From assembly GCF_020520425.1 (NCBI RefSeq), contig NC_079491.1, positions 496,001 through 560,000 on the forward strand: DNA of 64,000 bases. The letters are read 5' to 3'. The DNA is from Spinacia oleracea (taxonomy: Eukaryota; Streptophyta; Magnoliopsida; Caryophyllales; Amaranthaceae). The position numbers and the translations under genes were made by a program. Positions 46,107 through 50,506 of this stretch are shown one piece after another. Every line of letters starts with the position of its first letter. Position 1 is the stretch's first letter. Under the pieces are notes generated by a model. The model did not search any database. It had not been told where the DNA came from and was given only the letters and a program-made list of their open reading frames with translations.

Positions 46107-46491
46107 ATGATGAAATCAGAAATGGAGAAGGGAAGATCACAGTCAAGATCAGATGCAACAGCAGCAGATGGATTTGAGTACGAAGATGAAGAAACGAAGA
46201 TGGATATGTTTTACGAGTTGATTAGAAGATTCAATCAAGCTCGAGATCATCATTTTCATCAACATCGAAGCTCTTTCCTCCAATTCCGCAATCAGTATCA
46301 TCATCAAAATCAAAATCAACCTCAACCGACTACCAATTTAGTGCTGAATCATAATATTAGTGGTAATAATAATAATAACAATGGTGATAAGAAGAAGGAT
46401 TTCAATTCCAAAAAAAATTCAAATAATCAACCTCATGGTAGCTGGATGCCTTCCTTTAAATGGGAGGATTTTAGAGACGTTCATCATCATG

Positions 46492-46522
<31 letters not shown>

Positions 46523-46742
46523 GGGAGCCGTCGTCGGTCAAGATCAAACAGTGGTTGTTTCTGATAAATCTGCAATTAATTATAATTATCCTGATTCCAA
46601 TTGCGGTTTGAAGAAGAGGAAGATTAATGACGTGAATGATGAGGATGAAGATGAGATCACCACCGCTGACGCTGACGCTGATCAATTGAAAAGTCCAAGT
46701 CCTTCATTTCACAGTGGGTTGGACCTCAATCTTGCCCTCTGA
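46107..46742 (+). CDS. NIMIN-like (NIM1/NPR1-interacting) protein with EAR motif
   Basis: A single exon of 211 residues. A short acidic-then-amphipathic segment, EDEETKMDMFYELIRRFNQA, resembles the NPR1-binding box of NIMIN proteins. The C terminus, LDLNLAL, is an EAR-type repression motif (LxLxL), also typical of NIMINs. KKRKIND is a probable nuclear localisation signal. The middle is low complexity: Gln/Asn-rich, a six-Asn run and an almost uninterrupted His tract encoded by CAT repeats. NIMINs tune salicylic-acid defence by binding NPR1 and repressing its targets. Arabidopsis members are shorter (about 110-140 residues), so the homopolymer tracts account for much of the excess. Two adjacent ATGs could start translation; the first is used. 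The family call is moderate. Confidence 0.72.
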
Positions 46743-47112
46743 GATTTAGAATTAATTAATTAAATTAAATTATAATATAAGTAGATCCTTTCCTTAATCT
46801 AAGAGTATGAAATATGATTTGCGTTTTAATCTCCCCCTCTTCTCTAGCTAGCTATCTGCAGATTCGTTTTGCTTGCTATAGAACATTAGCTGTGTAACTC
46901 AAGTTTATTAATAACATCACCCGAAGTTGAAAACCTTGCCCGTTATAAAAGAAGGGTGGATTCCATAGAGGAAGTCTACGTTAAATGAGGTTTGTAATTT
47001 TGTATGGACACAAATGACTCTTATTTGTACCGGTTAATTTGATATTGGTATTGAGACTAGTGTGATATTGTTATATCAATACACTGTTAAAAATTACAAA
47101 TGCAAGTCATTA
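46743..47112. other. 3' UTR of the NIMIN-like gene and short spacer
   Basis: AT-rich 3' sequence ending at the left edge of the nested transposon cluster. No other feature was recognised. Confidence 0.5.
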
Positions 47113-47348
47113 GAACATCAATTGTAAGGGTACCACTTATTTACCCACTCTTAATCTCTCTCTTCATCCACCTCATCACCTCTCTTAATAAGAGTTATCT
47201 ACCAAAAATCCAAGAAATAACTATCTCTTATTTACTCCCTCTTAAACAACTTTTACATGTATTTTCTATTAAAAAAAAACAAAAATATCAAAAGCATGCA
47301 CATTTTCCCCACAACCATCCACCTCACCCCACTCTTATTTTTAAGCTA

Positions 47349-47778
47349 CTCCCTCCATTTCTTTTTGATGTATCCATTTGGAATCTGGTGTGTTTTTTAA
47401 GAAAATTAGAATATTGGTTTGTATGGGTATAAGTGTAATGATTGGGTGTAAAGAGAAATGATTGGGTGTAAGAGATTATAATAAATAAAGGAGTGAGAAA
47501 ATAATAAAGAAATAAGGTAAGAGAGAGGAGTGATAATGATGGGTGATAAAGGAGGTGAGAGAGTGGGTATATGGGGAAGGGAAAAGATTTAAATATTATG
47601 GGTGGGGAAAATTAGGTGGAAATATAGGTAGAATCTTTAGATATTTTGGTAATTAGATAGAAATGTAAGGGTATTTTAGGATAAAATGTATGTCCAAAAA
47701 TAGAATAGATTCTAAATGGATACAACAATATGAAACGCTTAAAATAGAAACGGATACAACAAAAAGAAACGGAGGGAG
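47349..47778. mobile_element. Stowaway-like MITE nested in the outer MITE
   Basis: A 430-base element with left end CTCCCTCCATTTCTTTTTGA and right end AAAAAGAAACGGAGGGAG, inverted repeats of about 27 bases. TA dinucleotides flank it at 47347-47348 and 47779-47780. The interior is A/G-rich with a local GATTGGGTGTAA duplication. Confidence 0.9.
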
Positions 47779-47908
47779 TACCTCTTATTTTTGGAGTTAA
47801 GAGGTAGCTAAGAGTTAACTCTTATTTTTTAAGAGCTACCTCTTATTTAGAGGAAGTCCCAATCAACCTCTAAATAAGAGGTAGCTAAGAGTTAACTCTT
47901 ATTTTTTA

Positions 47909-49799
47909 CGGTTTTTTCATGAAATGCCCCTGAGGTTTGCAATAATGCACCAAATACCCCTGCGCGTTTCAAAATTCATAAAATACCCCTATTTTTTCCA
48001 ACTGTTCATAAAATACACTTGGACTTAACGTCCGTTAGTCCTCCGTTAGTAGGAATTTACGTTTTTACCCTTATGTGACTTAAATCCCATTCATCTGCAT
48101 ACTTTCTATCTCCCACTCAACCCACCCAAACTTTCTCTCTCCTCCCACTGAACCAACACCACTCCTCACCCCGTCACCATCTTCGCCCCTGCTACCGTCG
48201 CCAACCTCGGCCAGGGTTTGACTTTCTCTGTTGCACCGTCGATGGCATCGGTGACCCGGTCAACTCTCTATCTCCTCCATTGGCGTTGTCGACGAGTGAG
48301 ATTTCATCAAGGTGAGAGGCATTGATTAACGGGAGGAGAAGACGGCGGGAGGAGTTGATCCCAGAGCGGAGGAGAGAGAATTACAAAAAATCGGGTTGGC
48401 GGAGGAAGAGGAGCTGCCACCATCGTTGGGCGGAGATGACGGAGGAGGGACAACACCAGAAACGTCTGTTGTTGGCGTGGTCATGGTGGGTGAATTCGGC
48501 GGCGATTTCGGTGGGAGAAATTAGGGTTTTGAGAGCGGTTTGATCTTGTTCGATCTTCTTGTGGTTGTTGTTGGTGGAGGGGGAGGTGATTGACAGATTG
48601 AGCTTGGGTTTCTTGGGGGTATGGGCGCCATTTTCAGGGGAGGGGAGAGAATCGGAAGCCATGGGAGGTGGGAGAAGAGAGAAATATGCTTGAAAGCCGC
48701 TCAATTTTTGTGAGGTACTGTGTGATGATGGAGTAACTACATTTGGGTTGAAAGGTATTGAAATAATGGGAAGAGTTGATAGTTATCTAAATTCTAAAAC
48801 AACAAATTAAGTATCAAGTATGGAACTATCAAGTTTTGAACATTAGAGATCTAAGACTGTGAAGTACGAGATCTGAAGGCAAGGGTTTAGGTGAATAGTC
48901 AGAATTAGCGGGGGTTCCACAAATGGACTGGGAAAGTGTGAAAACAACAATACAGGGCAGGCATTGTTGACTTTGTTTCTAACCCAATTATGCTACCAAG
49001 AACCTTACTTTTATGGCACATTGCATCTCAAATTCCTGAACATCATTATATCATGTCTCTGAACAACACTCTGAAGATCAGTCATCAGTTAAAGCTCTAT
49101 TGTAAAGCTGGTGACATAAACACGATTCAGCTGCAAAGAGATTATCAAATGAAGGTTAAAGGCGGAATATTTAAAGTTATTACTTTGGTTTGCTGTTGGA
49201 ATTGGGACTGCAAAACTAATTTGCGTTCTATTGGTGTAGTTCTTTCTTAAGGGTGGAAATGGCTCAAGCAAGGTAACCAAGAATGTGATGCATTGTAGTA
49301 CAAGAGTGATTGTAAATGTTCATTGCAAGGGTATTATTACCGGCTTACTTTGAATTTTCAAGAGCTTTTATAGACTTTCAAATGTATATGGCAATGGCAA
49401 TATAATCAGAGTTTTTGTAAAGCTACTCTGCAAATTAATCGGCTTTTTATGGAATATAATTCCTATTTATTGCTGGAAATTTGTTACAAACTGCTCTACT
49501 TCATTGCTAGGAAAATTAGAAATTCAAACTAACCGTTGGATTCAAATTCTGCAGTTTTAAAGGAATTTTGGGTATTTGATGCAAAGAACTTTATAAATAG
49601 GTGTATATTATGCAATAAATTTATATGTAGGTGTATTTTATGAATTATAAACATGACTTAACGGAGTACTAACGGAAAGTCATAATAGGGGTATTTGGTT
49701 AACAGTTTGGAAAAAATAGGGGTATTCTATGAATTTTGAAACGCGCAGGGGTATTTGGTGCATTATTGCAAACCTCAGGGGCATTTCATGAAAAAACCG
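47909..49799. mobile_element. non-autonomous Mutator-like element (Pack-MULE type)
   Basis: A 1,891-base element. TATTTTTTA is duplicated exactly at 47900-47908 and 49800-49808, the 9-bp size expected for Mutator-like transposons. The ends are long inverted repeats of about 145 bases; the first 70 or so, starting CGGTTTTTTCATGAAATGCC, are identical at both ends, implying recent activity. There is no transposase. The interior is much richer in G and C than the surroundings on its left side and contains a captured gene fragment (48381-48662, minus strand). Confidence 0.93.
48381..48662 (-). pseudogene. captured 5' fragment of an L-cysteine desulfhydrase gene
   Basis: Read on the minus strand from the ATG at 48662, the frame gives MASDSLPSPENGAHTPKKPK, then ALKTLISPTEIAAEFTHHDH, then CCPSSVISAQRWWQLLFLRQP. 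This matches, in order, the N-terminal region of plant L-cysteine desulfhydrase (AT3G62130 type, PLP-dependent class V), where I recall SEFSHHD, ARINNGSFGCCPSSVI and QRWQLxFLRQPD. The ARINNGSFG block is shortened and altered in this copy, and the frame ends soon after. The rest of the enzyme, including the PLP lysine, is absent, so it is a non-functional piece carried by the transposon. The parent gene should lie elsewhere in the genome. Confidence 0.82.
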
Positions 49800-50506
49800 T
49801 ATTTTTTAAGAGGTAACTCTTAAATTTTCTCTCTCTTTAAGAGGGGGTTAAGAGTGAGTTACAATTGATGCTCTAAATTGGCACTACAAGTTCTGTGTTG
49901 ATACTCAAATTGTTATATTTGGCTAACTTGTGTCCAATTTGATAATAAGTCACTTAACGTTTAAAAACCTCGAATTTTGAATGCCGAGTTAGATTTATTA
50001 TTGTGATTTTAGATTTTTGTGATGACTAGGTAGATATACAACTTAGGATTCCACACATCTTTCATGTTCATTTCTATTACAATTGACAAGTTGTTGAATT
50101 TGATCGTACTAATGGTCTCATTTCTTGGTCCCCATGTCTTATTATATGTTCTTTGCATAAAAGTTTTCCGTAAACAAATAAAGGGGACATGCGATGCACA
50201 TGTAGGTTAGATAGTTCCATGCAATTCATGTATTTTTTATATAAAGTGATTAGAAAAGAAGTTTCTTAATCATAGGGTTATTGATAAAGTGATAACCCTT
50301 GTGTTCTGGTATCAGAATCTTGAAATGTTTTTGGATCTTTCGGATATCAAACGTAGAAATGAGTGTTTGTAAGGTGAAGTCCAATTTCGGTGGAGGGTCC
50401 TGATTTGGAGTCTCCGACGCTTCAATAAGTATCTTGAATATGATATAAAAGATAAAGAGTTCAGGAATCAAGTTCCTCTTTACTTTGTCTCACTGGTCTG
50501 GGATAA

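Follow-up and report, generated by a model that had tools for sequence, protein, structure and literature searches.

A chimeric, multicopy Pack-MULE in spinach carrying pieces of three host genes, one of them a probable L-cysteine desulfhydrase gene

Among the closest described systems are the Pack-MULEs of rice, on which Jiang et al. reportedly published in 2004, and the maize MuDR/Mu system, which combines a MuDR-type transposase with terminal inverted repeats (TIRs). The maize combination recurs in the presumed helper of the spinach family described here, which has MuDR-type transposase domains and TIRs. For rice, elements that combine pieces from two or more donors have been reported, as have families present in multiple copies (PMC4858842, PMC8277862). 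The spinach element shares with the rice elements its non-autonomous Mutator-like (MULE) ends, the size class of its target duplication, and its unlinked, mostly GC-rich host-gene pieces. It differs from them in its host and donor genes, in that one of its three pieces is intronic and not GC-rich, and in that the DNA to the right of its L-cysteine desulfhydrase (LCD) piece varies between lineages. The PM-ZIBP Pack-MULEs of tomato are likewise a dicot family, and the gene fragment that they acquired has a named parent; unlike the spinach family, they have tandem TIRs (PMC3310237).

A published survey of spinach, which used other methods and another assembly, counted 167 MULE-MuDR elements (PMC6337768). 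In the open-licence literature searched, the one paper found to mention both Pack-MULEs and spinach concerned sucrose genes, and we found no report of a Pack-MULE carrying a desulfhydrase; we do not claim novelty for the case. The element, a chimeric and multicopy Pack-MULE, illustrates a known process clearly but is not unusual. Its value is as a worked example of a dicot MULE family assembling and rewriting pieces of host genes, for which the parents, junctions that are largely shared and a likely helper can be named.

The element and its three captured pieces

The window, a stretch of 64,000 nucleotides of the spinach genome (C5:496001-560000), contains at positions 47909-49799 a non-autonomous Mutator-like element of 1,891 bp with inverted ends. 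The unstranded 9-mer TATTTTTTA flanks it on either side (47900-47908 and 49800-49808) as a perfect target duplication, which fits the 8-11 bp class of Pack-MULEs. The left TIR (47909-48048, plus strand) was delimited by the inverted pairs I1 (94%) and I2 (72%) and by the terminus, and the right TIR (49659-49799, minus strand) by the inverted pairs and the terminus. Their arms are 94% complementary over 116 nt, including 23 nt of palindromic flank, and 72% complementary over an additional 57 nt, giving the long TIRs characteristic of Pack-MULEs. The 23-nt element terminus occurs twice in the window and was absent from 100 shuffles.

The initial annotation had read the minus-strand frame at 48381-48662 as the N terminus of an LCD-type protein captured by a Pack-MULE. 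The motifs FTHHD, CCPSSVISAQ and LRQPD do follow one another in that order, and translation of the frame confirmed that this interval is exactly an ORF running from ATG to TAA, with 93 codons before the stop, which opens at the native LCD start codon. As a delimitation of the captured DNA, however, the interval was too narrow. According to blastn, protein search and alignment, the LCD 5' piece spans 48281-48688 on the minus strand, comprises about 25 bp of leader and parental codons 1-129, and carries indels and one in-frame TAA; beyond this stop (48381-48383) the same LCD frame continues as ...LINASHLDEISLVDNA. The 93-codon remnant keeps KKPKLN and lacks the enzyme domain. The longest stop-to-stop frame of the element has 133 aa. 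A Pfam search of that frame gave no family, as expected, since the fragment precedes the conserved domain.

The best match of the piece is an intact gene of the kind that had been proposed, and not a member of an unrelated family. The parent lies elsewhere in the same genome, as had also been anticipated, as a complete, uninterrupted ORF of 473 codons (C4:7309813-7311234, minus strand). The likeness is not due to chance. At the DNA level, blastn of the piece against this locus gave 369/420 identities (E 1e-136) and the alignment 365 identical bases out of 402, with 19 gap columns. The protein search of the genome recovered the window place with an E value of 2.0e-50 and 77% identity over parent codons 1-132. 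The parent protein has a class-V aminotransferase domain (Aminotran_5, PF00266, E 1.7e-15), its best solved-structure matches are Egt2 C-S lyases, and its 20 NCBIfam matches were weak, none of them at the cut-off. Its N-terminal HTPKKPKLN resembles, by eye, the HLAKKPKLS of tomato SlLCD1. The domain and the N-terminal motif suggest that the gene is probably a plant LCD of the AT3G62130 type.

The LCD piece named in the initial annotation is indeed there, but two others were missed, together with the fact that the element belongs to a multicopy family. To the left, at 48082-48281 on the plus strand, lies a 5' coding piece of a homoserine kinase (HSK) gene. It matches the donor locus (L062) with 152/180 plus 26/27 identities, agrees with it at 88% of 200 aligned bases, and carries a 34-nt internal deletion and frameshifts. 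The donor has an open frame of 416 residues that scores above the TIGR00191 cut-off. A second TIGR00191 match (C4:23564706) was rejected as donor, being below the cut-off and without a match to the element. To the right, at 48702-48978 on the plus strand, lies DNA taken from intron 1 of a gene of the 4CL-like (AMP-binding) kind; it matches positions 4621-4900 of L057 with 258 of 269 aligned bases identical and 19 gap columns, and in the donor this stretch lies between the exon of the AMP-binding domain and the GYGMTE exon. The GC content is 0.532 for the LCD piece, 0.540 for the HSK piece and 0.365 for the 4CL piece, in a window of 0.355. The element is therefore a chimeric Pack-MULE drawing on three host donors, namely the LCD gene, the HSK gene and an intron of the 4CL-like gene. 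For the remaining internal DNA (48979-49640), a search for a donor gave a match to one locus (L058) over part of its length at 86%; no gene was recognised in the frames listed for L058, and no family terminus was found there.

The 4CL piece is the closest of the three to its donor and is missing from groups B and C of the family (see below), and was thus probably added last. We also considered the order of HSK first and LCD later, as two relatives (L038 and L039) lack the LCD piece. The tree of the left ends led us to drop this inference: both fall, with support 0.94, in a clade that also holds L012, L013, L037 and L059, all of which bear LCD sequence, so that loss or replacement of the LCD piece explains them equally well.

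The copy family and its presumed helper

A search of the genome (894,210,420 bases in 242 contigs) for the terminal 31-mer, allowing three mismatches at most, gave 1264 matches on one strand and 1232 on the other, against 0 and 0 for the reversed control. Among the matches listed, pairs of termini delimit 5,144 bp at C1:70908897, C2:39620333 and C2:67621586, and 5,142 bp at C1:17889948. The first of these (L061) is an element of 5,144 bp with the target duplication TTAAATCAA, whose ends match those of the window element over up to 237 nt in one stretch, at 92.4%. In two of its three open stretches scanned, DBD_Tnp_Mut, MULE and SWIM domains were found in separate stretches, while the Pfam scan of the third gave no match. 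A transposase-bearing relative with the same ends, a feature of Pack-MULE systems, is thus present in the genome, and its domains make L061 the likely helper of the family. Together with the TIRs and the 9-bp duplication, this MuDR-type relative upholds the original Pack-MULE reading.

Facing pairs of termini also occur 12-16 kb apart, at C1:88464225-88479881, C1:105530186-105545781 and C1:100267027-100279356; these might mark elements of very large size, elements nested in one another, or termini that are neighbours by chance.

The protein search with the LCD sequence, in which all 77 candidates were scored, gave 76 matches, namely the gene and 75 others that merge to 55 places. None of these 55 places extends past codon 134; the gene itself was the one full-length example of its LCD type that this search recovered in the genome. 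The DNA searches scored the best 40 candidates, and their counts are lower bounds. We read 39 of the 55 LCD-derived places; the other 16 include C6:131033424 and C3:8482322. Ends and duplications were surveyed at 42 places beside the window, of which 35 had both ends and 7 did not. With the window included, a perfect 9-bp duplication flanks 31 of the 36 elements with both ends; the others have one mismatch (L038, L050) or six (L031, L047, L048). L038 and L060 are counted among the 36, although an LCD match was found in neither. Seven copies (L021, L022, L023 and L041-L044), each at a site with its own duplication, share 99.0-99.7% identity with the window element along its full or almost full length, and L025 is 98.0% identical.

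The copies fall into three main groups. Group A (n=15, window included) has the full LCD piece, which occupies one and the same internal position in every copy; L016 is interrupted, and L045 has an internal deletion. L056 is near this group but rearranged. In group B (n=8; L034, L035, L036, L050, L051, L052, L054 and L055) and group C (n=9; L029-L033, L047, L048, L049 and L053) other DNA replaces the 5' part of the LCD piece, and the remaining copies are outliers. The replacement DNA of group C matches C3:151493064-151493538 at 89%. Within this locus (L064, C3:151491800-151494800) the matching DNA overlaps an open reading frame that has no Pfam family, and a frame with a BSD domain (PF03909, E 4.1e-13) lies about 0.5 kb beyond it; this BSD gene is the probable donor of the group C cargo. 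A stretch at C2:112493621, with an 83% match, may be related to the cargo of group B.

In positions of the fragment, as given by BLAST ends, the right-hand end of the LCD homology lies at 744-747 in group A, 806 in L010, 884-893 in groups B and C, and 972, 989, 1029 or 1096 in other lineages. The left-hand end is mostly at position 1153 (1149 in L010, 1151 in L016 and L028) and is lost in L036 and L056. Since most lineages among the 39 places read end at the same LCD position, a single capture is the simplest explanation, and this common end favours one capture over the second, independent one that we considered.

Two members of the family showed features of their own. L010 (C6:42063500-42068500) is a diverged relative that bears LCD sequence and has neither the 12-nt deletion nor the TAA; the search reported an open frame of 165 aa there; element ends were looked for at this locus and not found. 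L047 and L048 (C5:25417820-25427364) are group C copies about 6 kb apart whose flanking 9-mers are TTATCGATA/TAAATTGAA and TAAATTGAA/TTATCGATA, the reciprocal pattern expected from exchange between two copies.

Very probably, then, a non-autonomous MULE captured pieces of host genes and was spread by transposase supplied in trans, with the LCD piece as a broken passenger. The ancestral element would have acquired part of the HSK gene as well as the LCD 5' end, presumably by gap repair or template switching, and the branch leading to the window copy would subsequently have acquired the 4CL-like intron piece. The MuDR-type transposase of elements with the same ends would act in trans and leave the 9-bp target duplications. 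The LCD piece was already disrupted by the time group A dispersed and would behave as passenger DNA, presumably without a functional product.

State of the desulfhydrase frame and alternative readings

In the window copy the LCD frame is scrambled across codons 23-37 and stops after codon 93. Throughout the 15 copies of group A a stop occupies one shared codon position; it reads TAA in 14 of them and TGA in L041, whose LCD frame is also frameshifted. One TAA interrupts the matched stretch in seven of the eight group B copies (L036 does not have that part) and in all nine of group C; the matched stretches of L010, L012, L013 and L059 have no stop. Judged from these sequences, the frame looks dead.

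Variants within group A comprise 7 synonymous and 18 non-synonymous changes on 78 and 249 sites, respectively (ratio 0.81, p 0.64), and the pooled dN/dS between group A copies is 0.70. From parent to copy, dN/dS ranges from 0.38 to 1.09 over 40 fragments, with 0.43 for the window copy; values below 1 may stem from constraint on the parent branch and from small numbers, and they are no proof of neutrality. Among 14 copies, mean pairwise divergence is greater in the LCD segment (0.0227) than in any of the other five segments compared (0.0060-0.0187), while the LCD share of variable columns (0.069) is below those of the left end (0.075) and the HSK piece (0.080). In PM-ZIBP, by contrast, conservation of the captured fragment is reported to be similar to that of the TIRs or slightly above it (PMC3310237). 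No constraint on the LCD segment was demonstrated, and none was significant within group A.

These data bear on the idea, raised conditionally in the initial annotation for the LCD gene, that the copies act in trans, with small RNAs from the element lowering expression of the LCD (and HSK) gene. Transcripts from the left TIR would be antisense to LCD and those from the right TIR sense. The element has 70 21-mers identical to the parent LCD locus, which fall into six runs of 23-53 nt, and 10 identical to the HSK locus, and the LCD-type gene is present in a single full-length version in the protein search. Promoters in the TIRs, described also for the maize MuDR/Mu system, are reported to drive the internal regions of Pack-MULEs (PMC3310237), and Pack-MULEs are described as possible sources of small RNAs (PMC8277862). 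Such 21-mer identity is, however, expected from any fairly recent capture, and the LCD segment is without significant constraint; we consider this action unlikely. Were small RNAs of the element to act on the LCD gene, transposon load would be linked to H2S signalling. We hold it somewhat less probable still that the 55 LCD-derived places form a small-RNA reservoir set against the single full-length gene and tuning H2S, with a left "head" (TIR, HSK and left part of LCD) kept largely fixed while the right cargo is repeatedly rewritten.

Translation of the 93-codon ORF into a shortened N terminus of LCD, still bearing a motif for nuclear localisation, would draw on the native start codon and the KKPKLN retained in the window copy, and on the requirement of HLAKKPKLS for the nuclear location of tomato SlLCD1 (PMC7736880). 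Against it stand the scrambled codons, the early stop, the frameshift of L041, the lack of a Pfam family in the frame and the lack of significant constraint, all of which make such a product very improbable. A further alternative, in which a MULE inserted by chance next to a local pseudogene of the ordinary sort, would fit the truncated and broken state of the LCD-like stretch. It can practically be dismissed, as 15/15 group A copies hold the piece at the same internal position and 14 of them have both ends at sites with their own target duplications.

Sequences adjoining the element

Three further features surround the spinach Pack-MULE in the window. At 47344-47783, inverted arms of 36 nt, 89% complementary, have CTCCCTCC beside TA at both sides, and the stretch reads like a Stowaway-type MITE. 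By eye, the outer ends TTAGAACATCAATTGTAA and TTACAATTGATGCTCTAA, at about 47110-49876, suggest a further inverted-repeat element with both the MULE and the MITE nested inside it. Finally, a plus-strand frame of 211 aa at 46107-46742 contains an NPR1_interact domain (PF15699, E 1.6e-11) and ends in DLNLAL, an EAR-like motif; the Mutator-like element begins about 1.2 kb downstream of this frame.
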